NCBI RefSeq assembly: GCF_000422345.1
Contig: NZ_AULP01000006.1
Location: 62,001-126,000 of the forward strand
Source: Neomelitea salexigens DSM 19753
GTDB taxonomy: Bacteria > Pseudomonadota > Gammaproteobacteria > Pseudomonadales > Spongiibacteraceae
Length of the DNA: 64,000 bases
Direction: 5' to 3'
The notes below the pieces were generated by a model. That model searched no databases. It was given only the letters and a program-made list of their open reading frames with translations, and was not told the origin of the DNA. Position numbers and translations under genes: made by a program. Below, in pieces: positions 1 to 48,261 of this stretch (within the stretch, counting starts at the first letter, position 1; the number at the start of each line of letters is the position of its first letter).

Positions 1-2519
1 CTACCGGCATGGTGATTGTCGCCTGTGTGACCTTGTCGGTAATGGTGTGTAATGAATGGCTGGTGCCACTCTGGCAGCGCTTTCGTCAGGGGCACGAGAT
101 CAACGCCCGGTGGTTGCAGCAAGTGCGGCGTATTGCCATCGCCGCAGTACTGTTTGCCGCCTGGCTGCTGGAGCAACAGCTCAGTGCATACGGCGGCCTT
201 GCTTCACTTGGCTTGTTATCGTTCGCCGCCGCAGCGCAGCTGTTGCCCGGTATTATCGGCGCCTTGTACTGGAGTCGGGGGCATGCCAAGGGAGTAGTAG
301 TCGGCCTGCTAGCCGGTGGCTTTTTATGGGCCTACACGCTGCTACTGCCGGCGGTGCTGGGACAGGGCCACAGTGTGGTGAGCAGCGGCCCAATGGGCTG
401 GCAATGGCTGCGTCCGGAAGCACTGATGGGCTTTGATTTTGGTGACGCACTGAGTCACGGCGTGTTTTGGAGTCTGGCCGTTAACAGTTTGCTAATGGTG
501 CTGATTTCCAGGCGCTGCCGTTTTAGCAGCATCGATATGCGTCAGGCGCGCAGTTTTACCGAGGTGCGGGTCGAGCGCCGCCAATTACAAGCGGAGTTGG
601 AACTCACTGACATTGATGCCTGGCAGCTTCACCGCCTGTTAGTGCCGCTACTCGGAGACGGGCGCAGCGAGCGAATGTGGCAGCGCTTTGAGCAGCGACT
701 GGGCCATCGCCTATTGCCTAGTGACCGAGTGCCGCGCTTTGTTATTAAAGATGTCGAAGAGTCGCTAGCTTCGATTGTTGGGGCGGTGTCGGCGCACCGA
801 ACACTGGAACTGCTGGCCAAGCGCAAGCCGCTGGATATCGATGAATTTGTGTCGCTGATCGGTACGACCTCACGGCAAATTCAGTTTGGCCAGGATCTAC
901 TGCAAATCACGCTAGAGACTATCCCGCAAGGGGTTAGCGTGGTGGATGGGAACCTCAACCTGGTCGCCTGGAACCAGCGCTATGTCGATCTGTTTAATTT
1001 CCCTGAGCGCCTGCTCTATGTCGGTTGCCCAATTGCCAAGATCTACCAATACAATGCCGAGCGCGGTTATTTGCACGATGCCGATAGCGATGTTGATGCG
1101 GCGATTCGGCGGCGCCTGGGGCTGTTGCAGGGGGCAAAACCCTATCGCCTGGAGCGCCTGCTACCCAATGGCTTGGTCATTGAAATTTGCGGCACACCGA
1201 TGGCCAATGGTGGTTATGTAACCACCTATACCGATATTAGCGAGTACCGGCGAATCTTTAATGAGCTGGAAGCCGCCAAGTCGCAATTGGAGGAAAGGGT
1301 GGCTGCTCGAACCTCAGAGCTAGAGGCCGTGAATCAGTCCCTGGAAGAGGAAAATGCCACGCGAGCGCGCATTGAGCGGGAGTTGAATACTGTCTACGCC
1401 AGTAAAAATCGCTTTTTGGCATCGGCCAGTCACGACCTATTGCAACCCATCAATGCTGCCAGGCTCTTCACCGCCGCGCTGTCGGGAAAAGTGGAAGAGC
1501 AGGCGGCCGGGGCCAGTTCGCTAAGCAGCGATGTGAAACACATTGACGAAGCACTGGCCGGCGCGGAAACCCTGATCACCTCCCTGCGCGAAATTGCGCG
1601 CCTGGACTCCGGGAGAATGCAGCCCCAGCTCGAAAGCTTTGCCATACAGTCATTGCTCGACACGATGGGGCGTGAGTTTTCGGTGATAGCTCAGCGCAGC
1701 GGCCTGACATTGCGCGTTGCACCCTGTTCGCTTTGGGCCCGCAGTGACCGCCACTTACTGCGCCGGGTAGTGCAAAACCTGCTTAGTAACGCCCTGCGAT
1801 ACACCCCGCAGGGCACGGTGTTGTTGGGTTGCCGACGACAGGGAGAGCAACTGAGTATCCAGGTGCTCGATACCGGGCCGGGTATTGCCGAGCAGGACCA
1901 GCAACGTATCTTTGACGAGTTTGAGCGCGCAAACGACGCGGCTCACCGTGAAACGGAGGCCGGCCTGGGCCTTGGGCTATCGATTGTTCGCCGTATCAGT
2001 AGCCTGCTAGGGCATGACTTGAGCATGGTTTCTGTTCCGGGGCGCGGCACGGTTTTCTCTATAACGGTACCTATCGTCAATGCGGTTGCGGCGAGCGAAG
2101 CTGCTACGGTAGCCGAAGAGGCCCTGCAGTCAGAACTCGCGGGGCTAACGGTGCTGTGTGTGGACAATGAAGCGGCGATTCGCGCGGGAATGCAGAGCCT
2201 GCTCGCGCAGTGGCAGTGCCGCGTGTTTGCCGGTGCATCGCTCAGCGATGTGCTGAGTCAGTGGCCGCTGGATACACCGCCCGATATTGTGCTGGCAGAC
2301 TATCACTTGGACGGTGGCGAGACGGGGCTGGAGTTATTGCAAACCCTGAACTATCACTGGGGCACGTCGCTCCCGGCAATTGTTATCAGCGCCGACAACA
2401 GTGATGCGGTTCGCCGGTCGGTCATCGATGCAGGTTATCGCTTCCTTGCTAAGCCGGTTAAGCCGGCGGCGCTGCGTGGCTTAATGCGTAAAATGGCAAG
2501 GGGCTGGGGTAACGCATAA
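1..2519 (+). CDS. crbS: CrbS/MxtR-type sensor: symporter-PAS-histidine kinase-receiver (5' truncated)
   Basis: The frame is open to the window edge, so the N-terminus is missing; the Met at 9 is internal. What remains starts in the last transmembrane helices of a sodium:solute symporter (SSS) domain, then a cytoplasmic linker, a PAS domain (about residues 300-410 counted from base 9), a coiled coil, a HisKA domain with H-box SHDLLQP (His about 475), an HATPase with N-box LLSNALRYTP and G-box DTGPGI, and a C-terminal receiver whose phosphoacceptor is the Asp of LADYH (about 764). SSS-kinase-receiver fusions of this kind are CrbS (Vibrio) or MxtR (Pseudomonas). They phosphorylate a LuxR-type regulator that switches on acetyl-CoA synthetase. 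A CrbR-like regulator and acsA lie just downstream, which supports the name. The ligand and whether the symporter part transports are not shown by the sequence. Confidence 0.85.
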   Translation, partial: TGMVIVACVTLSVMVCNEWLVPLWQRFRQGHEINARWLQQVRRIAIAAVLFAAWLLEQQLSAYGGLASLGLLSFAAAAQLLPGIIGALYWSRGHAKGVVVGLLAGGFLWAYTLLLPAVLGQGHSVVSSGPMGWQWLRPEALMGFDFGDALSHGVFWSLAVNSLLMVLISRRCRFSSIDMRQARSFTEVRVERRQLQAELELTDIDAWQLHRLLVPLLGDGRSERMWQRFEQRLGHRLLPSDRVPRFVIKDVEESLASIVGAVSAHRTLELLAKRKPLDIDEFVSLIGTTSRQIQFGQDLLQITLETIPQGVSVVDGNLNLVAWNQRYVDLFNFPERLLYVGCPIAKIYQYNAERGYLHDADSDVDAAIRRRLGLLQGAKPYRLERLLPNGLVIEICGTPMANGGYVTTYTDISEYRRIFNELEAAKSQLEERVAARTSELEAVNQSLEEENATRARIERELNTVYASKNRFLASASHDLLQPINAARLFTAALSGKVEEQAAGASSLSSDVKHIDEALAGAETLITSLREIARLDSGRMQPQLESFAIQSLLDTMGREFSVIAQRSGLTLRVAPCSLWARSDRHLLRRVVQNLLSNALRYTPQGTVLLGCRRQGEQLSIQVLDTGPGIAEQDQQRIFDEFERANDAAHRETEAGLGLGLSIVRRISSLLGHDLSMVSVPGRGTVFSITVPIVNAVAASEAATVAEEALQSELAGLTVLCVDNEAAIRAGMQSLLAQWQCRVFAGASLSDVLSQWPLDTPPDIVLADYHLDGGETGLELLQTLNYHWGTSLPAIVISADNSDAVRRSVIDAGYRFLAKPVKPAALRGLMRKMARGWGNA

Positions 2520-2661: not shown

Positions 2662-4614
2662 ATGACTTTCTCAATTTCCCGCCGTTTGCTCGGCGGTCTT
2701 CTTCTTACCAGCGCGCTGACGGCCTGTAACTCAGGTAGCGACAGCTCCAGTAGCGGTGATTCCTCGCCGGTGCGTGCCGAGCCATTCAGCATTGGTTTAC
2801 TTCCGGATACCCAAGGCGGATCCGATGCGCAGGGTCAAGCGCACGTTGCGATGTACCCGATGCGGGAGGTGCTGAAACATCAGTCGGCCAAGGGCGTGGA
2901 TCTAGTCATTGCTGTCGGTGACCTCACCGACAAGGGCAGTACGATTGAATGGGGCGAGTGGACATCGGTCGCCGAAGACTTCAGAGAAGGCGGCATAGAA
3001 TTTTTGCCGGTGATGGGCAACCACGAAATGAACTATGCCTACACGACGGAGTGGATTGCCAATATGCGCAATTACATTCCCGAGGACGCGGTGCACATGC
3101 CCGGTTACGAATGGGTGAACTACTATGTTGTGCGCAGCAACGTACTCATTATTGGTCTGGCATACTACAACCTGCCTTTGGCGATCGACTGGATAAAAGA
3201 CGTGGTGGCTGACAACACCGATGTCGAGCACATTGTTGTCGCCAGTCACGACGGATTGATCGGCGCGAAATACGGCCAAACTCGCGAGCAAATTGTAGAA
3301 GGTACCAAGGGCGATGACTGGGTATACGGTGTTCAGAAAGATATTCGCGAGTTCTTTGCTGAGCACGATGTCATTTATGTGCAGGGTCATGAGCATCAAT
3401 ATCAGCGCTCGTTGATCTCCGCAACGACCATGCAAACAACCTTTCCTGCAAGCTCCACACCCTCGGGAGGCAATTATCAAATGGGGGTGTATACCCAGAT
3501 CATGGCGGGTAATGCCTCATACAAGGGCTATGAATTTCGCTATGGCGAGCGCGAGTTAGTACAAGCGATCGTGTCCCAGAAAAATGCCACGTACAGTGAA
3601 AGCAAAGGCTCAGATCACTTTGACGTGAATTCGTCGATATTGCGCTTTGATGGCGACCGCGTTGACTATCAGTCCTATTACGCGGAGCACCAGGCGCGCA
3701 GCAATGATCCAAGCCAGGACTTTGACGCGCAGTGGGTGTTGATGGATCAGTTCTCACGGGCCAAGAACCGCTGCGAAACCGTGGTCTATCCCAACTCGAT
3801 TCCCGACGGCACGCGCTCAGTGCTGGTGTTCCAGACCGAATATATTACCGATACCTGTGTTGCTGATGACGGCTCGTCAGCGCGTTTGGTGGGTGGCGAT
3901 AATGACACCTTTAACCGCACGGACACACGCACCCGCGATATGGAATATGTGCCCGGCTTCTCGCGCGCGGAATCCCTGATGGATTTAACGCGGCTCGCTT
4001 ATCAGTGGCTTTACCAATACCACGAGAGTTGGACGCCGAACCTGAATAACCGCTATCGCGCGGTGCCTGATGAAGCCGAGAATGTGCTGCTGATTCCTGA
4101 AACGACGATCGACCTTAAAGAACACGTGACGCTCAGCTGGCAAGGCAAGACCGCAGACACCTTGACGGATCGGTTGCTTATCAGCGGCATGCAAAACCAA
4201 ACAGGGGTTTACCAGGGGGCTTATGGTGGTGAGCGGGATATTGCCGCTGATACTGGCCTGCCACTGTCGCAACCAGATGGCACAGCCAAGGCGCCCACCG
4301 TGTTGCCCAGCAGCGCGACACAGAGCTGGGATATCAGCGCGGCCAAGGCCGACCCCTATGCGGTGGCTTTTACAGTGAATGAGTCTGTGCCCTTCGCCAG
4401 CAGTATTCTGGCGCAGAAAACTGCGCAAAGTTGGCAGGCCATCGCCACGCCGGAATGCGTCGTTGAAAGTGCCTGGCAGGAGGATTTTATCGGTGCCATG
4501 CCAAACCGCGCAGCGGCTTGTGAGAGTCAGCCCCTGCTGGGTTACGATGCCAACGCCAGACAGTGGTGGGCAGTTTTGGATGCCGATACCGAGATCGCGG
4601 TGATACGCCGCTAG
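2662..4614 (+). CDS. Exported calcineurin-like metallophosphoesterase lipoprotein
   Basis: 650 aa. The N-terminus is a lipoprotein signal peptide with lipobox LTAC followed by a Ser/Gly/Asp-rich linker. The metallophosphoesterase domain fills about residues 40-260, with the metal-binding series PDTQG (DxQ rather than the common DxH), GDLTDKG, GNHEMN, SHDG and GHEHQYQ. The C-terminal half has no domain I recognise; it resembles a beta-rich extension and is rich in acidic residues. The likely role is hydrolysis of extracellular or periplasmic phosphoesters for phosphate scavenging, supported by the tandem Pho repeats upstream. Substrate unknown. It is a single gene lying between crbS and the convergent crbR, and may have been inserted into an ancestral crbS-crbR neighbourhood. 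Confidence 0.85.
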   Translation: MTFSISRRLLGGLLLTSALTACNSGSDSSSSGDSSPVRAEPFSIGLLPDTQGGSDAQGQAHVAMYPMREVLKHQSAKGVDLVIAVGDLTDKGSTIEWGEWTSVAEDFREGGIEFLPVMGNHEMNYAYTTEWIANMRNYIPEDAVHMPGYEWVNYYVVRSNVLIIGLAYYNLPLAIDWIKDVVADNTDVEHIVVASHDGLIGAKYGQTREQIVEGTKGDDWVYGVQKDIREFFAEHDVIYVQGHEHQYQRSLISATTMQTTFPASSTPSGGNYQMGVYTQIMAGNASYKGYEFRYGERELVQAIVSQKNATYSESKGSDHFDVNSSILRFDGDRVDYQSYYAEHQARSNDPSQDFDAQWVLMDQFSRAKNRCETVVYPNSIPDGTRSVLVFQTEYITDTCVADDGSSARLVGGDNDTFNRTDTRTRDMEYVPGFSRAESLMDLTRLAYQWLYQYHESWTPNLNNRYRAVPDEAENVLLIPETTIDLKEHVTLSWQGKTADTLTDRLLISGMQNQTGVYQGAYGGERDIAADTGLPLSQPDGTAKAPTVLPSSATQSWDISAAKADPYAVAFTVNESVPFASSILAQKTAQSWQAIATPECVVESAWQEDFIGAMPNRAAACESQPLLGYDANARQWWAVLDADTEIAVIRR

Positions 4615-4649: not shown

Positions 4650-5300
4650 TTACTCTACGCTCGGCGTGTTCACGTCTAATTGGCTCAGCATCAGTACGGC
4701 CTGTGTTCGCGAATGCACACTGAGTTTGCGAAAAATTTCAGTGATATGGGCTTTGATCGTGGCCTCGGTGACATTCAGCTCCCAGGCAATCTGTTTGTTC
4801 AGCAGCCCCTGTACCAAATAACTGGCAACGCGAAACTGCTGGGGCGTCAAGCTTGCCACGACCTCGGCGATCGATTTTTCATCGCTGCTACTGGCCTGCT
4901 GATAGCGCACATTTTCCGGCAGCCAGCGCTCTCCTTGCAGCACTTGTGCAATGGCGGTACTGATCTGTTCTGGCGAACTACTCTTGGGCAAAAAACCGCT
5001 GGCGCCGTAATCAATGGCGCGGCACATCACTTCCTCGGTTTCAGAGGCAGACACCACCATAATCGGTATTTCCGGGTGCTGGGCCTCCAGGTGGACTAAG
5101 GCACTAAAGCCCTGTGCGCCGGGCATATGTAAGTCCAGCAACAGTAGATCGATGTCGCTGTCTTCGTCGATGGCCTGTTGAAGGCTGCCGATATCGCCGA
5201 CCTCGTCAATGCGTGCAGTCGGAAAGCTCGCGCTCAGGGCGCCGCGCATGGCCGAGCGGAAAAGCGGGTGATCGTCGGCGATCAGAAATCGCTGGGTCAT
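4650..5300 (-). CDS. crbR: LuxR/NarL-family response regulator, CrbR/ErdR type
   Basis: 216 aa. The N-terminal receiver carries the acidic pair in IADDHP, phosphoacceptor Asp56 in LLLLDLHMPG and the conserved Lys in FLPKS. The C-terminal LuxR-type helix-turn-helix includes GLLNKQIAWELNVTEATIK. Length and layout are normal for NarL-family regulators. Known orthologs (CrbR in Vibrio, ErdR in Pseudomonas) act with CrbS/MxtR to activate acs and acetate uptake genes. Here the gene lies between a CrbS-type kinase and acsA, in the same direction as acsA and about 150 bp beyond its terminator, so it probably has its own promoter. The symbol rests on family plus context. Confidence 0.82.
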   Translation of the reverse strand: MTQRFLIADDHPLFRSAMRGALSASFPTARIDEVGDIGSLQQAIDEDSDIDLLLLDLHMPGAQGFSALVHLEAQHPEIPIMVVSASETEEVMCRAIDYGASGFLPKSSSPEQISTAIAQVLQGERWLPENVRYQQASSSDEKSIAEVVASLTPQQFRVASYLVQGLLNKQIAWELNVTEATIKAHITEIFRKLSVHSRTQAVLMLSQLDVNTPSVE

Positions 5301-5449: not shown

Positions 5450-7411
5450 TTACGCAGCGTTTTCGTTGATGTGTTGATGTCCCTCAATAAGCCGTGCAAC
5501 AACTGAGGGGTCGGCAAGCGTGGAGATATCGCCCAGGGCGTCGTATTCGTTGGCCGCAATCTTGCGCAGAATTCGGCGCATGATCTTGCCGCTGCGCGTT
5601 TTAGGCAGGTCGTCGGCCCACTGAATCACGTCGGGAGAGGCAATCGGGCCGATTTCGCGGCGCAGCCACTGCTTCAACTCTTGCAACAGGGCGTCGTCGC
5701 CTTGCTCGCCCTGCTGCAGGCTAACGTAGATATAAATGCCTTCGCCTTTGATCTCGTGGGGGAAGCCAACCACGGCGGCCTCGGTCACTTTCGGGTGGGC
5801 AACCAATGCACTTTCCAGCTCGGCAGTTCCCATGCGGTGACCAGAGACATTGAGCACATCGTCCACGCGGCCGGTGATCCAGTAGTCGCCATCAGCATCG
5901 CGGCGGGCACCGTCGCTGCTGAAATAGTAGCCGTTGAAGGTGGAGAAATAGGTATCGATAAAGCGCTGGTGGTCGCCAAAGATGGTGCGCATTTGCCCGG
6001 GCCAGCTGTCGCAAATGACCAGGTTGCCATCGGTGGCGCCGTCCAAGACGTTTCCGTCGTTATCCAGCAGTGCTGGTTGCACACCGAAGAACGGCTGAGT
6101 GGCTGAGCCGGGCTTCAATTCTGTGGCGCCCGGCATCGGGGCAATCATCATGCCACCGGTTTCGGTCTGCCACCATGTGTCTAGGATAGGGCAGCGGCCC
6201 TCGCCAAAGACGTCGTGGAACCAGCCCCAGGCCTCTGGGTTGATCGGCTCTCCCGCGGTACCGAGCAGGCGCAAGGAGCTGCGGCTGCTGGTGGCCGTGG
6301 CTTCCTCGCTCTTGGCCATCAGCGCGCGGATCACGGTGGGCGCGGTGTACAGGGTATTCACCTGATATTTATCGATAATCCGGCCCAGTCGCCCGCAATC
6401 GGGGTAGTTGGGGACACCTTCATACATGATGCAGCTGGCGCCGTTACTGAGCGGGCCATATACCGCGTAGCTGTGCCCGGTGATCCAGCCGATATCGGCC
6501 ATACACCAGTAAACTTCATCCGCTTTGTAGTCGAACACCGTATGGTGGCTCAGAGAGGTGTACACCATATAGCCGCCAGTGGTGTGCACCGCCCCTTTGG
6601 GCTTGCCGGTTGAGCCAGAGGTGTACAACAGGAACAGCGGATCTTCGGCGTTCATCGGCTCGGGTGGGCAAACTGCAGACTGCTGCTCAACGAGGCTGTG
6701 GTATTCCACGTCGCGGTTGGCGCGCCAGTGAATATCGGCGCCGGTGTGCTTGAGCACCAGAACTTTTTCAACGCAGGCCGGAGAGCAGAGTTCTATGGCC
6801 TCGTCGACGTTTTGCTTCAGGGGAACCGTTTTACCGCCGCGACGACCCTCATCGGCGGTGATTACCAATGCCGATTGACCATCGCTAATGCGTCCTGCCA
6901 GCGCTTCTGGCGAGAAGCCGGCAAAAACCACCGAGTGCATGGCGCCAATGCGTGCGCAGGCTAGCATCGCGAAAACGGCTTCCGGAACCATTGGCATATA
7001 AAGAGTAACCACATCACCTTTTTTAACGCCCAGGCTCTTGAGGCCGTTGGCGAGTTTGCAGACTTCTTGATGAAGTTCGTTATAAGTGAATTGTCGTGAG
7101 GCCTGGCCCTCTTCATCCGGTTCCCATTGCAGCGCGAGTTTCTCGCCGCGCTCGCTGAGATGTCGGTCTAAACAGTTTTCAGAGGCGTTGAGTACGCCAT
7201 CTTCAAACCACTTAATATAAAGATCGTTTTTATCAAAACTGCAGTTCTTTATTTTACTAGGAGCCTGGTACCAGCTGATTCGTTCCGATACTTGCTTCCA
7301 GAACGCATCGGGGGCATTGACCGATTGTTCATACATTGCCTGGTAATCGTCTGCGGAGATGTAAGCATTCTCGCGAATCGACTCTTTGATGGGGTAGCGT
7401 TGTTCTGTCAT
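5450..7411 (-). CDS. acsA: Acetyl-coenzyme A synthetase (AMP-forming)
   Basis: 653 aa, the usual length. It makes acetyl-CoA from acetate, ATP and CoA through acetyl-AMP in the cytoplasm. Visible motifs are the ANL-superfamily P-loop [11 protein letters not shown] (about residue 265), the aromatic motif [10 protein letters not shown] (about 415) and, near the C-terminus, [11 protein letters not shown], whose Lys falls at residue 609, the catalytic lysine that is acetylated in Salmonella Acs. The ATG at 7411 is preceded by GAGGG. The gene is divergent from the porin gene; the 206-bp gap holds three copies of a dyad motif and a candidate -10 (see the regulatory entry). With crbS, crbR and the symporter genes it forms an acetate-scavenging module. 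Confidence 0.97.
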
Positions 7412-7455: not shown

Positions 7456-7580
7456 AGTATTCTCCGCGAGTGCATTTTTCGCTATTAGACCTTGGTCGAG
7501 CGACTGAGCACTCCCGTCATAGACTTTCGTCGATATTTGACTAATGGCTAATACGCAGCTTTGCAAAGTCGGCCTATAAC
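7456..7580. promoter_or_regulatory. Divergent acsA/porin promoter region with three shared dyad motifs
   Basis: Three 16-bp sites share the core GACNAANGTC: 7485-7500 and 7519-7534 (both read best on minus) and 7536-7551 (plus, imperfect GGC half). The plus-strand -10 is TATAAC at 7575-7580 with no -35 match; site 3 is centred 31.5 bp upstream of its first base. The minus-strand -10 candidate is AATACT (7461-7456); site 1 is centred 31.5 bp upstream of it. That is the position expected for an activator next to the -35 region. CrbR is the obvious candidate, by inference. I chose the acsA -10 partly because of this spacing. Confidence 0.6.
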
Positions 7581-7617
7581 CTCCAGTGACAGATAAAAAC
7601 AACCGGGAGACACTCTT

Positions 7618-8913
7618 ATGCAAAGCAATAAAAGGCGCACTTTCGCATCTCGATACCTACCTGCTCTTGCGGCACTGCCACTGGCTGTTGCCGCGGGTTC
7701 CGTTTCCGCGGAGTCGCTGGAGCAGCGCGTGCAGCGCTTAGAAGCAGCGCTGGCTGAATCCACCGCCCAATCGACCAGCAACACGACGTATAAATTTGGT
7801 GGCTATATCAAGTTAGACGCGATGGTAAGTCAGTACAGTGGAGGCGAGCGTGCCTTGGCGGCGGTGGGCGACGATTTCCTGGTGCCCTCCGTTATTCCCG
7901 TGGGAGGCGAGTCCGGCGATGCTCACTTTGATATGCAGGCAAAATATTCGCGTATCTGGTTCAAAACCGCGACGCAGACCGATGCCGGTACCATTTCTAC
8001 CCACATTGAAATGGATTTTGGTGTCAACCAAATCGGCGATGAGCGACTCAGTAATTCTGCGGTATCGCGCATTCGTCATGCCTTTGTAAGCTGGCAGTAC
8101 GACAAAGACAGCTCCTTCCTTGCCGGTCAAACCTGGGGCACTTTCTTTAACGTGGCGAGCCTGCCAGAGACCCTCGACTTTGTTGGCCCGGTGGCCACAG
8201 TATTTGAGCGCCAGGCGCAGTTGCGTTGGACCCACGGTGTGGGGAATGGCAGTTCGTTGATGGTTGCTGTGGAAAACCCGTCCACTGGGCTCTATGGCGG
8301 TACTAGTGGCGCCGCAGGCGGCGGTGATTTTGACAACAATAGTCTGCCCGATGTCGTTGTTCGCTATAACGGTAAATCAGGCGATCTGAGCTATAGCGTG
8401 GCAACGGTGCTGCGTGAGATTGCTTACAAAGAAAACTTTAGCAATAACCTCGCGCAACCCATTGAAGGTGACGAGAGCGAGATGGGTTATGGATTGAGTT
8501 TTTCGGGTAAATGGCAGCTGGGTCAAGATGACCTCAAGTTCCAGCTGAACGCCGGTAATCTTGGCCGCTACTTGGGTTTGCAGAGCTTCCGCGATGGTTA
8601 CATTGAAAGCAATGGCGATATCGACCTGCTGGACACCGTGGGTGGCTTTATCGCCTACCGCCACTTTTGGGCACCCAAGTGGCGCAGCAGCTTTGTGTTG
8701 TCCGCTAGCGAAGCCGATCAGCCCAGCAACGCACCCGCTGGCACGCCAAGCGCTTACCGCAGTGCTCACGCCAACTTGCTGTATTCGCCGGTTAAGGCAC
8801 TTACCTTGGGTGCTGAGCTGATCCACGGCGAAAAACATATTGAAGGCAGCATTAACGGCGACGACAGCGGTGAGTTGGATCGCTTGCAGTTTAGTGTGAA
8901 GTACGTGTTCTGA
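7618..8913 (+). CDS. DcaP-like outer-membrane porin
   Basis: 431 aa. It has a cleavable signal peptide ending near SVSAES, then a short coiled coil (LEQRVQRLEAAL) typical of DcaP-family trimeric porins, then alternating hydrophobic/polar beta strands ending in the aromatic C-terminal residue expected for BAM-assembled barrels (FSVKYVF). DcaP-type porins pass small carboxylates and related solutes. The neighbours (acsA divergently, a symporter pair downstream) suggest a route for acetate or short organic acids across the outer membrane; this is inference. The ATG at 7618 has a GGGAG ribosome binding site 8 nt upstream. The promoter has a good -10 but no -35, with a dyad motif beside it. Confidence 0.85.
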   Translation: MQSNKRRTFASRYLPALAALPLAVAAGSVSAESLEQRVQRLEAALAESTAQSTSNTTYKFGGYIKLDAMVSQYSGGERALAAVGDDFLVPSVIPVGGESGDAHFDMQAKYSRIWFKTATQTDAGTISTHIEMDFGVNQIGDERLSNSAVSRIRHAFVSWQYDKDSSFLAGQTWGTFFNVASLPETLDFVGPVATVFERQAQLRWTHGVGNGSSLMVAVENPSTGLYGGTSGAAGGGDFDNNSLPDVVVRYNGKSGDLSYSVATVLREIAYKENFSNNLAQPIEGDESEMGYGLSFSGKWQLGQDDLKFQLNAGNLGRYLGLQSFRDGYIESNGDIDLLDTVGGFIAYRHFWAPKWRSSFVLSASEADQPSNAPAGTPSAYRSAHANLLYSPVKALTLGAELIHGEKHIEGSINGDDSGELDRLQFSVKYVF

Positions 8914-8923
8914 GCGTCCCGCT

Positions 8924-8980
8924 CTTGACTAAAGTCGAATGGATTGCGGCGACAACAAAGCGCATAAAGAGTATGTCGCC
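8924..8980 (+). promoter_or_regulatory. Symporter operon promoter: dyad motif, -10 and flanking inverted repeat
   Basis: CTTGACTAAAGTCGAA (8924-8939) carries a perfect GACTA/AAGTC-type dyad and matches the sites before acsA and the porin gene. The candidate -10 CATAAA (8963-8968) starts 31.5 bp from the motif centre, the same distance as in the other two promoters. A separate perfect inverted repeat, GGCGACA (8948-8954) and TGTCGCC (8974-8980), brackets this -10. No terminator is visible after the porin gene, so read-through is also possible. Confidence 0.5.
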
Positions 8981-9009: not shown

Positions 9010-9279
9010 ATGGCGTTTCAATCGAAAGAAATGGCGAAAGCATACTGGCGTGAAAACCTCACGTTAATGCTCTGGCTGTCAGTGATCTGGTTCATCGTGT
9101 CTTACGGATGCGGAATCCTGTTTGTAGAACAGCTCAATGCTATCAAGTTAGGTGGATTCAAATTGGGCTTTTGGTTTGCGCAACAGGGGTCTATTTACAC
9201 CTTTGTGGCACTGACATTTATCTACGCAAAAAAAATGGGCGATCTCGACCGTAAATACGGCGTAGATGACGACGCATAA
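9010..9279 (+). CDS. DUF4212 membrane protein, small partner of the symporter
   Basis: 89 aa with two predicted transmembrane helices (about residues 16-36 and 49-71) and a short charged tail. The DUF4212 family (putative solute:sodium symporter small subunit) is nearly always encoded directly before an SSS-family symporter, as YjcH is before ActP. Here the symporter starts 15 nt downstream. The ATG at 9010 is preceded by AAAGGAGAA. The role is presumably assembly or modulation of the transporter. Confidence 0.88.
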   Translation: MAFQSKEMAKAYWRENLTLMLWLSVIWFIVSYGCGILFVEQLNAIKLGGFKLGFWFAQQGSIYTFVALTFIYAKKMGDLDRKYGVDDDA

Positions 9280-9294
9280 TAAGAGGCAGCCATC

Positions 9295-11028
9295 ATGGAA
9301 CTTCAAACATTAACGTATATTGTGGTGGGGTTTACCTTCGCCATTTATATCGGCATCGCCATCTGGGCGCGCGCCGGTTCAACGAAAGACTTTTATGTAG
9401 CCGGCGGTGGAGTTCACCCCGTTGCTAATGGCATGGCGACTGCCGCTGACTGGATGAGCGCGGCGTCGTTTATCTCAATGGCTGGTCTGATCGCCTATAT
9501 GGGCTACGGCGGCTCAGTTTTCCTAATGGGTTGGACGGGTGGCTTCGTGCTGCTGGCCATGTTCCTGGCGCCATACTTGCGTAAATACGGCAAGTTCACG
9601 GTACCTGAGTTCATTGGCGACCGCTTCTACTCAAGGACTGCGCGTATCGTTGCCGTTGTCTGCTTGATTATCTGTTCGGTGACTTACGTTATCGGTCAGA
9701 TGAAAGGGGTAGGGGTGGCCTTCTCGCGCTTCTTAGAGGTCAGTTATGAAGTCGGTCTGCTGGTGGGTATGGCTATCGTCTTTGTCTACGCCGTTGTCGG
9801 TGGCATGAAGGGCATCACCTATACGCAGATCGCGCAGTACTGCGTGTTAATTTTGGCCTACACCATTCCCGCTTTTTTCATCTCCTTTAACTTAACCGGC
9901 AACCCCCTCCCGCAGCTTGGCTTGGGCAGCACGATCAGTGGTACCGACGTATACTTGCTCGACCGCCTGGACCAGGTGATTACCGAGTTGGGCTTTGCCG
10001 ACTACACCAACAATGTTCGTGGCAGCACCTTGAATATGTTTGTGTACACCCTGTCGCTAATGATCGGTACGGCGGGCTTGCCCCACGTCATTATCCGCTT
10101 CTTCACGGTGCCTAAAGTAAAAGATGCGCGTACCTCAGCGGGTTGGGCACTGGTGTTTATTGCCATTCTCTACACAACTGCGCCGGCAGTGGCAGCCATG
10201 GCACGTTTGAACCTGCACAACACCATTGCGCCGCCAAGTGCTGAACAAAACCTTGCTTACGAAGAGCGCCCACAGTGGTTTAAAAACTGGGAAAAAACCG
10301 GTCTTCTTGAGTTCGAAGATAAAAACGGTGATGGCCGCATTCAATACACCGCGAGTGCGGAGACCAATGAAATGGTCAAAGTCGATCGCGACATCATGGT
10401 GTTGGCAAACCCTGAGATAGCCAAGCTACCCAACTGGGTTATTGCACTCGTGGCAGCGGGTGGTCTCGCAGCAGCATTGTCTACTGCGGCGGGTCTGTTG
10501 CTGGCAATTGCATCGGCGATCTCCCACGACCTGTTGAAGGGCGTATTGATGCCTGACATCTCCGAAAAAGCAGAGCTGAGAGCCAGCCGAATTGCTATGG
10601 CAGGTGCGATCGGCTTTGCGGGCTACCTCGGTTTCAACCCACCTGATTTCGCGGCGGGTACGGTAGCACTGGCCTTTGGTTTGGCGGCCTCCTCGATCTT
10701 CCCCGTGTTGATGATGGGTATCTTTAATCGCCGCATCAACAAAGAAGGCGCCATTGCTGGGATGATTGCAGGTATCGGTGTCACCTTGTTCTACGTGTTC
10801 CAGCACAAAGGCATTATGTTCGTGGCCAGCACCGCCTTCTTGGGCGATATGCCAGCGAATTGGTTCTTTGGCATTGAACCCAACGCGTTTGGTGCAGTGG
10901 GTGCCGTGGTGAACTTTGCGGTTGCCTTTGCGGTGTCTGCAGTGACCAAAGCACCGCCAGCAGAAGTGCAGGAACTTGTTGAGCACATCCGCGTTCCTGT
11001 TGGTGTTAGTGCGGCGCAGGATCACTAA
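9295..11028 (+). CDS. Sodium:solute symporter (SSS family), cation/acetate-type
   Basis: 577 aa inner-membrane transporter with about 13 hydrophobic helices. Typical SSS features are the N-terminal YVAGGGVHPVANGMATAADW stretch and Na+-site residues in the MSAASF and SMAGLI region. Between helices (about residues 330-360) is a hydrophilic insert with DKNGDGRIQY starting at residue 342, close to an EF-hand loop but lacking the final acidic residue. It belongs to the group paired with DUF4212 (the VC_2705-like symporters), related to acetate permease ActP. The acs-associated location supports a short-chain carboxylate substrate, not proven. A strong terminator follows. Confidence 0.9.
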   Translation: MELQTLTYIVVGFTFAIYIGIAIWARAGSTKDFYVAGGGVHPVANGMATAADWMSAASFISMAGLIAYMGYGGSVFLMGWTGGFVLLAMFLAPYLRKYGKFTVPEFIGDRFYSRTARIVAVVCLIICSVTYVIGQMKGVGVAFSRFLEVSYEVGLLVGMAIVFVYAVVGGMKGITYTQIAQYCVLILAYTIPAFFISFNLTGNPLPQLGLGSTISGTDVYLLDRLDQVITELGFADYTNNVRGSTLNMFVYTLSLMIGTAGLPHVIIRFFTVPKVKDARTSAGWALVFIAILYTTAPAVAAMARLNLHNTIAPPSAEQNLAYEERPQWFKNWEKTGLLEFEDKNGDGRIQYTASAETNEMVKVDRDIMVLANPEIAKLPNWVIALVAAGGLAAALSTAAGLLLAIASAISHDLLKGVLMPDISEKAELRASRIAMAGAIGFAGYLGFNPPDFAAGTVALAFGLAASSIFPVLMMGIFNRRINKEGAIAGMIAGIGVTLFYVFQHKGIMFVASTAFLGDMPANWFFGIEPNAFGAVGAVVNFAVAFAVSAVTKAPPAEVQELVEHIRVPVGVSAAQDH

Positions 11029-11701: not shown

Positions 11702-13552
11702 ATGAGTGATAAAGCAGAGCTGGCATTGGTGAGTGATTTTCTCGCCGAATGTTTGCCCTTTGATAGCCTTGACCCACAGACACTGGAAGACGTTGCTCGT
11801 CAGCTCCGTATCAAATATGTGCGACGCCATCACCGCTTTAGTGCGATGGATGGTGACGGCCTGTATATCCTGCGTAGCGGCGTTGTTGATGAACAGCAAG
11901 AGAGCGGCTTACTGCAGCGCTTTGAGAGTGGGGAAAGTTTTTCCCTGAATGGCCACAGTCGCGACGGCGAAGTCACACAGTCGCGCTATTTCGTTGCCAT
12001 AGAAGATTGCTTGATATACCGCCTGCCGGACGATGCGTTGCGCAGTTTGCGGCGCCAACATCGCCATATAGACCGCTTTTTCCATGCGCGCAGTGAGCGG
12101 CTATTGCGTCGCGCCGCGCGCTTTCGCGGCCAGCCGTCGTTTTTAATGCAGCCGGTTACCTCGGTAATGAGTCAACAGCCGCTCGAAGTTGGCCCCGAGA
12201 CTTCGATAGCGCAAACCGCGCAGGCAATGACCGAGCGCCGCGTGTCGTCGGCCTTTGTGACACGCGATGAAACCCTAATGGGCATCGTCACCGACCGCGA
12301 TTTGCGCAGCCGTGTATTGGCCCAGGGGCTATCGCCCGATCAAACCGTGGCCAGCATCATGACCGAGAACCCCTGCGCCCTGGCAAGTGATGCAACGCTT
12401 TTCGATGCTGTGTTGGAGATGACCAATCGCGGTGTTCATCACCTGCCGGTGTTGGATGAGGCGCAACAGCTGCTCGGTGTGCTGACCACCTCCGATGTCA
12501 ACGTGGCAAGGGAAGACGACCCGATCTACTTTGTGCAGCGGGTATCGCGGTTGAGCACTCTTACAGCGCTTCAGGAGCAACTAGCGCGCCTGCCGAACCT
12601 GTTCCGCCAATGGGTAGAGGCCGATACGCCGGTGACGCAGATTACGCAAATGACAACCGCGGTAAGTGATGCCTTGACGCGGCGGCTTATCGACCTTGCC
12701 GAACAATCGCTTGGCCCCGCTCCCTGCGACTACTGCTGGCTGGGCTTTGGCTCCCAGGCTCGGGGCGAGCAGTTACTTGGTGGTGACCAGGACAACGGTT
12801 TGCTGATTGATAATGCTGCAATCGACGACGACATGGCGTGGTTTGCGCAACTCGCCGACTTTGTCTGCGCTGGGCTTAATGACTGCGGCTATGACTACTG
12901 CCCGGGTGACGTGATGGCCAAGTCGGAAAAGTGGCGCAAGCGCGCCGCCGATTGGGAGGCGATGGTCGACGGATGGATGACCAGCCCCAGCGCCAGTGCA
13001 GTGATGCACATCAGTATTTTCTTCGACCTGCGTGCCATTGCCGGCAGCCGCAGCCTGGCTGAGGCCTTGCAGCAACATATGTTGGCTCACAGCCAGCGCA
13101 ATACCATTTTCCTTGCCGCGCTGGCAGAGAATGTTCTGGCAAGCTCGCCGCCGCTGAGCATGTTTGGCCGTTTTCTGCTGGAGCGCAGCGGCGAGCACCA
13201 ACACAGCCTCGACCTGAAAAAACGCGGTGTACTGCCGGTGATAGAGCTCGCCCGACTGCACTCGCTGGCCAATGGCATTCCCGCGGTAAATACCCATAAG
13301 CGCTTGCAGGCACTGGCGCGCGCTGGTCAGATGAGCTTGGCAGATAGTCGCAATCTTGAGGATGCATTTACATTGATCAATGGCATCCGTTTGCAACAGC
13401 AGGCCGCGCAAATTGCCGCTGGCGACGAGCCCGATAATTACTGCGATCCTCGCCAGCTTACCCGGTTGCAGCGCAGCCACTTAAAGCAGGCATTCAGGGT
13501 GGTCCATCAGGCCGAGGATATTATCAAGCTGCGCTATCGAGCGGGTAACTGA
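11702..13552 (+). CDS. cNMP-binding/CBS/DUF294 nucleotidyltransferase-like protein
   Basis: 616 aa, four modules: an N-terminal cyclic-nucleotide-binding-type domain (about 15-130), two CBS repeats (about 155-270; TDRDLRSRV and TTSDVNVAR), a DUF294 putative nucleotidyltransferase with GSQARGEQLLGGDQDNG (about 345-365), and a C-terminal DUF294 helical domain. Proteins of this layout occur next to symporters and DnaQ-like exonucleases in Pseudomonas and relatives. They are thought to sense nucleotides and regulate, perhaps by nucleotidylation; the target is unknown. The G-S and D-x-D residues of a Pol-beta-type active site are present. It is followed after 1 nt by the exonuclease gene. Confidence 0.88.
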   Translation: MSDKAELALVSDFLAECLPFDSLDPQTLEDVARQLRIKYVRRHHRFSAMDGDGLYILRSGVVDEQQESGLLQRFESGESFSLNGHSRDGEVTQSRYFVAIEDCLIYRLPDDALRSLRRQHRHIDRFFHARSERLLRRAARFRGQPSFLMQPVTSVMSQQPLEVGPETSIAQTAQAMTERRVSSAFVTRDETLMGIVTDRDLRSRVLAQGLSPDQTVASIMTENPCALASDATLFDAVLEMTNRGVHHLPVLDEAQQLLGVLTTSDVNVAREDDPIYFVQRVSRLSTLTALQEQLARLPNLFRQWVEADTPVTQITQMTTAVSDALTRRLIDLAEQSLGPAPCDYCWLGFGSQARGEQLLGGDQDNGLLIDNAAIDDDMAWFAQLADFVCAGLNDCGYDYCPGDVMAKSEKWRKRAADWEAMVDGWMTSPSASAVMHISIFFDLRAIAGSRSLAEALQQHMLAHSQRNTIFLAALAENVLASSPPLSMFGRFLLERSGEHQHSLDLKKRGVLPVIELARLHSLANGIPAVNTHKRLQALARAGQMSLADSRNLEDAFTLINGIRLQQQAAQIAAGDEPDNYCDPRQLTRLQRSHLKQAFRVVHQAEDIIKLRYRAGN

Positions 13553-47595: not shown

Positions 47596-48261
47596 CTAGT
47601 GGTCGCCAAACAGAAAATTACGAATCAGCTCTTTGCCGCCCTCGGTCGCAAAGGACTCGGGGTGAAACTGGATGCCATGGATAGGGTGTTCGCGGTGCTG
47701 AACCCCCATAATTTCGAACTCACCGCCGCGCCGAACCTGGCTGGGGTCGCTAAAGGCATTGGGCGGGATGTCGCCGACTAGCGCAGTGACTTGCAGGCAA
47801 TCGGGCAGAGACTCTGCCTCGGCGATCAGCGAATGGTAGCGCATGACTTCCAGTTGGTCCGGGACATTGGCAAACATGCCTTGGTCATTGTGGGTAATCG
47901 GGCTGATTTTGCCATGCATGGGCAGTGGCGCTTTGACCACCTTGCCGCCGAATACGTGGACGATGCCCTGCATGCCCAAGCAGACGCCAAGTAGGGGGGT
48001 GTGCTTGCCGAGCTCGGCGATCACCTGTGAGCACACGCCAAAGTAGTGTTCGTCATCCGGCGAGCCCGGGCCGGGTGAAACGATAATGCGGTCGGCATCG
48101 AGCTGGCGGATCTCGTCCAAACTTAATTCGTCGTTGCGTTTAACGACAATACTAAAGTCGACGAGCTGCCCGCGACTTTTTTCGCTGCTCAATATCTCGC
48201 CAATATATTGGTAGAGGTTGTAGGTGAAGGAATCGTAGTTATCAATGATGAGGACTTTCAC
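47596..48261 (-). CDS. trpG: Anthranilate synthase glutaminase subunit (trpR-linked copy)
   Basis: 221 aa from a GTG that overlaps the trpE stop (GTGA). Class I glutamine amidotransferase: [19 protein letters not shown], catalytic Cys94 in LLGVCLGMQG, and the His-Glu pair in GIQFHPESFATEGG. It releases ammonia from glutamine for the TrpE partner. Compared with the second trpG at 50081 it has an extra segment after helix 1 (about residues 22-38) and differs in many positions, so the two are not recent duplicates. PabA-like use in folate synthesis cannot be excluded. Confidence 0.9.
   Translation of the reverse strand: MKVLIIDNYDSFTYNLYQYIGEILSSEKSRGQLVDFSIVVKRNDELSLDEIRQLDADRIIVSPGPGSPDDEHYFGVCSQVIAELGKHTPLLGVCLGMQGIVHVFGGKVVKAPLPMHGKISPITHNDQGMFANVPDQLEVMRYHSLIAEAESLPDCLQVTALVGDIPPNAFSDPSQVRRGGEFEIMGVQHREHPIHGIQFHPESFATEGGKELIRNFLFGDH

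Follow-up and report, generated by a model that had tools for sequence, protein, structure and literature searches.

ACTU-type sites in an acetate gene cluster of Neomelitea salexigens and a conserved half-site variant at the promoter of its DcaP-like porin gene

The closest described counterpart of the locus analysed here is the ACTU regulon of P. fluorescens. According to the sections of PMC5715377 on this element, Sepulveda and Lupas gave the name ACTU to an imperfect inverted repeat located at -52 to -36 of acs, and CrbR-dependent activation in P. fluorescens SBW25 requires it, on the evidence of reporter mutants and of CrbR-dependent activation in E. coli. The same sections place ACTU also at actP, pflu5625, and pflu0110, and in 91 of 112 promoters examined; among the predicted sites of Table 4 are some weak ones with a mirror-image GCC in the left half. 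Similarly, for ErdR of P. putida KT2440, gel shifts of the PP_0354, scpC, and actP-I operon promoters are described in the part of PMC8402216 that deals with these promoters. There, P. putida acsA-I lacks the motif and gives no shift, whereas in the DNA analysed here the best site is that of acsA.

This DNA, referred to below as the window, is a stretch of 64,000 nucleotides from N. salexigens DSM 19753 (contig NZ_AULP01000006.1, positions 62,001 to 126,000). Judged by sequence comparison, four dyads in its acetate gene cluster are the already published ACTU motif, and motif, spacing, and regulator were all known before. The locus shares with the P. fluorescens regulon the inverted repeat, its placement beside the -35 region, and the kinds of target genes (acs, an acetate symporter operon, and a CBS/nucleotidyltransferase protein). 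Unlike the regulon of that paper, it includes a porin promoter with a conserved GGC half-site, and this promoter with its conserved altered ACTU appears to be the new part of the finding. A term search of PMC5715377 yields no porin target, its sections on ACTU describe no two-site promoter, and the open-licence literature searched yielded neither a report that connects CrbR with a DcaP-like porin nor a description of the two-site element. A match for CrbR in PMC4364456 was discarded, as it is a carbenicillin-resistance label.

The acetate gene cluster and its four dyads

The genes of the cluster are as follows.

Positions 9 to 2519, plus strand: C-terminal part of crbS (Pfam PAS_7, HisKA, HATPase_c, and Response_reg)
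Positions 4650 to 5300, minus strand: crbR (erdR-like) response regulator gene, the best match to the ErdR model in the genome
Positions 5450 to 7411, minus strand: acsA, acetate--CoA ligase (TIGR02188, 972.5 bits, cut-off 724.95)
Positions 7618 to 8913, plus strand: DcaP-like porin gene (Pfam PF19577 DcaP, 54.2 bits, above the gathering cut-off of 27)
Positions 9010 to 9279, plus strand: DUF4212 small symporter subunit (TIGR03647, 113 bits, cut-off 26.05; PF13937)
Positions 9295 to 11028, plus strand: VC_2705-family sodium/solute symporter (TIGR03648, 846.3 bits, cut-off 320.75)
Positions 11702 to 13552, plus strand: CBS/DUF294 nucleotidyltransferase protein (Pfam CBS, DUF294, and DUF294_C), 3' of the symporter

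The acsA and porin genes are divergent, and the intergenic region between them holds three of the dyads; the fourth precedes the DUF4212-symporter operon. The CrbR-like regulator gene and the end of crbS adjoin the cluster. A profile built from 11 such porins retrieved PDB 6eus_A, a DcaP-like protein, as its sole PDB match at E 0.001. For the symporter, the ActP models stayed below their own cut-offs. The protein encoded at 11702 to 13552 has domains of the same kind as those described for PFLU5625 of P. fluorescens, with cNMP_binding below the Pfam cut-off. Complete crbS has 1185 codons and starts 1039 bp ahead of the window. CrbS proteins are characterized by an SLC5 symporter domain joined via STAC to PAS, kinase, and receiver domains; in the protein encoded here, the N-terminal half (640 residues) gave no SSF match even at E 10. 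A 650-codon gene (window 2662-4614) separates crbS and crbR here; in Zhongshania antarctica (L178), the crbS and crbR matches are separated by about 30 bp.

The four dyads and three -10 hexamers named in an earlier sequence-only reading were all found where it had placed them.

Positions 7485 to 7500, minus strand: ACTU site of acsA, CTCGACCAAGGTCTAA on the minus strand (matrix rank 1 of 127,968)
Positions 7519 to 7534, minus strand: distal ACTU of the porin promoter, ATCGACGAAAGTCTAT on the minus strand (separated by 17 bp from its proximal partner in 15 of 16 family genomes)
Positions 7536 to 7551, plus strand: proximal porin site, an ACTU variant whose downstream half has GGC, TTTGACTAATGGCTAA (GGC in 16 of 16 family genomes)
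Positions 8924 to 8939, plus strand: ACTU site of the DUF4212-symporter operon, CTTGACTAAAGTCGAA (matrix rank 2 of 127,968)
Positions 7575 to 7580, plus strand: candidate porin -10, TATAAC (TATAAC or TATAAA at this distance in all 14 de-duplicated family promoters)
Positions 7456 to 7461, minus strand: candidate acsA -10, AATACT (offset 27 has the best mean of 10 promoters and is the single best hexamer in 2 of the 10)
Positions 8963 to 8968, plus strand: candidate DUF4212 -10, CATAAA, weak (offset 27 scores highest on average over 13 promoters)

Only two sites match the full 14-mer YGACNAANGTCKAA exactly, those of acsA (7485-7500, minus) and DUF4212 (8924-8939, plus). A single mismatch is present in both the 7519 and the 7536 site; the earlier reading had noted the GGC mismatch at 7536 and overlooked the one at 7519. 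The looser core has three exact copies in the window, each inside one of the two acetate intergenic regions; when one mismatch is tolerated, this core is not enriched in the window (33 found against 33.08 expected). The 3.44 Mb genome has just two copies of the exact 14-mer, one at acsA and the other at the DUF4212 operon; the form with one mismatch is not enriched, being no commoner than a reversed control (35 versus 80). As the pattern was read off these very sites, the independent tests are the published motif and conservation in relatives.

For the first of these tests, an outside matrix was built from 20 of the 23 Table 4 sequences in PMC5715377 and scored over the 127,968 positions and strands of the window. 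The acsA and DUF4212 sites took ranks 1 and 2, with the 7519 site at rank 11 and the 7536 site at rank 21. A matrix of the four verified promoters kept ranks 1 and 2 and dropped the porin sites to 28 and 40. The dyads are thus imperfect inverted repeats of the published type, the porin sites being weaker matches than those of acs and DUF4212. A further matrix match at 48147-48163 was set aside as background, since it lies inside the coding sequence 47596-48261. In relatives, the sites of the acs, porin, and DUF4212 promoters are conserved: all 12 cluster-type acs promoters of the family have the site at the same place (one being TACCAAGGTC), and 15 of 19 family homologues of DUF4212 have an exact core within 260 bp upstream.

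Spacing to the -10 hexamer and the candidate regulator

The distance from dyad centre to -10 hexamer is 31.5 bp in all three promoters, in agreement with the earlier reading. A -10 hexamer usually begins at -12. With the centre of the published -52/-36 placement at -44, the expected distance is about 32 bp, and the observed spacing therefore reproduces that placement. Promoters from 21 family genomes were collected by protein search and oriented, and every offset after the core was scored with a -10 matrix. De-duplication left 14 porin promoters (from 16), 10 acs promoters (from 12), and 13 DUF4212 promoters (from 15). Offset 27, which equals 31.5 bp, had the top mean score in all three sets, with near ties at offset 29 in the porin set and at offset 24 in the DUF4212 set (-0.53 versus -0.71). 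Taken singly, the DUF4212 promoters have their best hexamer at offset 27 or 28 in 5 of 13 cases, and the window's own best hexamer is at offset 36, which bears out the caution already voiced that this -10 is weak. A rotation null of the offset scan is too generous, as it takes related sequences as independent; weight is therefore put on the agreement among the three promoter sets.

The proposal that an activator site lies beside the -35 region, with CrbR as its regulator, is supported, this arrangement having been demonstrated experimentally for the same motif in P. fluorescens. The conserved sites and spacing fit with it, as does the co-occurrence of CrbR with the porin and with the core at the DUF4212 promoter. 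The window's regulator has a receiver domain (PF00072) and a LuxR-type HTH (PF00196), and its gene lies near crbS and acs; nearness is no requirement, as the crbS, crbR, and acs genes lie apart in P. fluorescens (PMC5715377). Against the ErdR model (NF041830) the regulator scores 251.3 bits, compared with 75.5 bits for the next best protein of the genome, and misses the curated cut-off of 390 bits; it is therefore called CrbR-like rather than a certified ErdR. All 64 aligned CrbR hits, in which some genomes are represented twice, agree at recognition-helix residues E179, T181, K183, A184, H185, and T187. CrbR is present in 16 of the 21 family genomes, and these are exactly the 16 that have the porin; because both genes belong to one cluster, this co-occurrence may equal a single loss of the block. 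The core at the DUF4212 promoter is found in 15 of 16 CrbR-positive and in none of three CrbR-negative homologues, which are small numbers. In one family genome (G020, L056), the DUF4212 promoter has no ACTU core within 260 bp, despite the presence of CrbR, the porin, and the acs sites. Additionally, six family genomes (L119-L124) have a second CrbR-like regulator with 40-43% identity.

An ACTU-like site is also located ahead of crbS, about 1.1 kb before the start of the window (G000:C6:60882-60895; L030, L210). Sixteen crbS promoter stretches were taken, one without crbS and one without its start, leaving 14. In 12 of these 14, the window's genome included, TAGACT lies at offset 26 from the ACTU-like core; it is at offset 27 in one, and one has no core. 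The spacing is thus almost that of the other three promoters. This arrangement suggests that CrbR may drive its own kinase gene crbS (autoregulation). Among the predicted sites listed in PMC5715377, crbS is present too, though it is not significant there (q 0.6).

The two-site porin promoter within and beyond the family

Within the Spongiibacteraceae, all 16 family genomes with the porin have GAC-NAAN-GGC-TAAT as the porin-side site, with GGC invariant, and in 15 of the 16 a canonical core in the opposite orientation lies exactly 17 bp upstream. The distal site of the pair is 27 to 68 bp from the acs site in the 11 genomes that have both. Since the distance within the pair is fixed and that to acs is variable, the pair belongs to the porin. 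The 7536 site had been regarded as a flawed copy of the motif; this view does not hold, as the site instead forms a conserved two-site porin element together with the 7519 site.

The GGC form recurs outside the family. In an order-wide, protein-led set, the porin was present in 84 of 390 genomes, and 55 loci outside the family with at least 330 bits were taken. Among 71 porin upstream regions, 44 have GGC, eight have GTC (all in family f40), six have GGT and two ATC (f16), one has AGC (f47), and ten have no site by the rules used. The site rule had missed 17 of the 71, seven of which have a TT-centred GGC site (five in f28 and two in f38), leaving the ten. Families with the GGC form include f46, f31, f38, f28, f43, f35, f25, and f11. 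The canonical GTC is found in 8 of 9 porin promoters of f40; among the ten regions with no site by these rules, those of f41 and f45 either have GTC-type cores that lack the NAAT flank or have no core.

Both strands were compared by one rule in 44 divergent acs-porin regions from 18 genera. On the acs side, 16 genera have GTC and two have GGC (g74 and g26). On the porin side, 13 genera have GGC, one has GTG, and four have none, one of these last having GTC at 2 of its 5 loci; GTC is the majority form in none of the genera. The contrast between GTC on the acs side and GGC on the porin side has a Fisher p of 5e-7, where the GTG genus counts as non-GTC, the four genera without a site are omitted, and genera are treated as independent, which they are not. 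This nearest-hit rule reads some loci differently from the other scan: three g77 loci scored as GTG have GACTATTGGCTAAT in the other scan, g17 of f16 is scored as none at three loci and GTC at two but as GGT at 5 of 5, and f47 is scored as none but as AGC. In the 17 genera with a canonical site upstream, the nearest one lies at 17-18 bp in seven, at 27-29 bp in three, and at scattered distances in seven; at the longer distances, the nearest distal site can be the acs site itself.

In a class-wide set of 29 loci (from 31 places, of which one had no locus and one was the window), 5 of 7 divergent acs-porin loci have the GGC form. GACNAANGGCNAA is present on the porin strand in 6 of the 29 loci, and many others have no acetate neighbour. 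A pattern scan of the genome collection returned 29 stretches, 25 of them with a porin downstream (for instance in Zhongshania, Wenzhouxiangella, Rheinheimera, and Aliikangiella); as GGC was built into the pattern, this count is uninformative on GGC frequency, for which the protein-led searches are informative. Reinekea marinisedimentorum (L153) is an exception to the porin link, having the two-site element beside DUF4212 and no porin match in the stretch.

A proposed order of activation and its alternatives

CrbR probably acts through these sites as ACTU operators of the CrbS/CrbR acetate switch. Phosphorylated CrbR would bind the inverted repeat, whose centre is some 44 bp ahead of the transcription start and about 31.5 bp away from the -10. 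Bound CrbR would compensate for the missing -35 and bring RNA polymerase to acsA and the DUF4212-symporter operon, both of which have a single canonical site at the activating position. At the porin promoter, the canonical ACTU 17 bp upstream would serve as an anchor, and the off-consensus GACTAAWGGCTAATA at the activating position would be filled beside it. The porin would then have a higher CrbR~P requirement than acs and the symporter and would respond later. We infer CrbR binding in this organism, as well as the weaker binding of the GGC site, the cooperativity of the two sites, and the ordered induction. The anchor-and-weak-site model of the porin promoter is offered tentatively, at slightly less than even chances.

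Several other explanations of the dyads were weighed. Matches arising by chance and picked with the spacing in mind would be compatible with a loose core that is unenriched in window and genome, and with the weak -10 of the window's own DUF4212 promoter, but a chance origin is ruled out by the top two ranks under the outside matrix and by conservation across genera, so that its probability is negligible. Alternatively, only the acs and DUF4212 sites could be functional, with both porin-side dyads acting as upstream helpers of acs. These dyads do lie upstream of acs as well, the distal one in the acs direction; however, their spacing is fixed to the porin -10, and they persist in four genomes (G004, G007, G013, and G018) where only the other type of acs, about 60% identical, was found. 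A helper role was rejected on the ground that spacing to acs varies, and it is very unlikely.

The remaining two alternatives, both improbable in our judgement, concern the GGC half-site itself. One assigns the proximal element to a second regulator, as its operator, and leaves only the distal site to CrbR, which would suit a GGC that is off consensus at a core position and yet kept across genera. However, the left half, the AT-rich centre, and the NAAT flank are all ACTU-like, the distance to the -10 is the same as for canonical sites, and f40 has porin promoters with a canonical GTC site. According to the other, the half-site change sets direction, so that CrbR bound on the porin side does not fire the divergent acs promoter backwards, and has no dose-response role. 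In its favour are the near symmetry of ACTU and the frequent occurrence of the variant between divergent acs and porin genes, but the variant is also present where crbR rather than acs diverges (L267, L274, L276, L302, and L303), and at L188, where a search of the 1.5 kb upstream gave no reference gene.

The layout proposed in the anchor-and-weak-site model has an analogue in BvgA, a response regulator of the same LuxR-type class. At the promoters of fha and ptx, as described in the portion of PMC7250471 on their architecture, an upstream nucleating site is followed by further dimers down to the -35 region. The analogy is one of layout only and implies no homology of sites, the BvgA dimer centres being 22 bp apart in that description, compared with 17 bp here. 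More broadly, it is possible, although the balance lies somewhat against it, that an off-consensus CrbR half-site (GGC for GTC) is purposely kept across many gammaproteobacterial families at the porin of the acetate cluster, often with a canonical anchor 17 or 27-29 bp (about one helical turn further) upstream, as a built-in affinity step delaying the opening of the outer membrane until the symporter of the inner membrane and the acetate-activating enzyme have been induced. An outer-membrane porin would thereby be placed in the acetate switch, with a conserved one-base difference between two promoters that have a common regulator and a common intergenic region, and the induction order within a two-component regulon would become testable via one half-site.

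Two further sites were observed in the genome of the window. A second acs gene (60% identical; L014/L097, G000:C2:32474-32487) has an ACTU immediately ahead of a TTCAAC-17-TATGCT promoter, its distance to the -10 being 6 bp longer than in the acsA promoter. Of the 18 family copies of this gene that were considered, 8 have exact cores, and all eight are in CrbR-positive genomes. Additionally, a 22-base inverted repeat, GGATTAGACC-TT-GGTCTAATCC, lies before an isochorismatase-family gene (L037, G000:C12:68147-68160) and resembles a perfect ACTU or a terminator stem.
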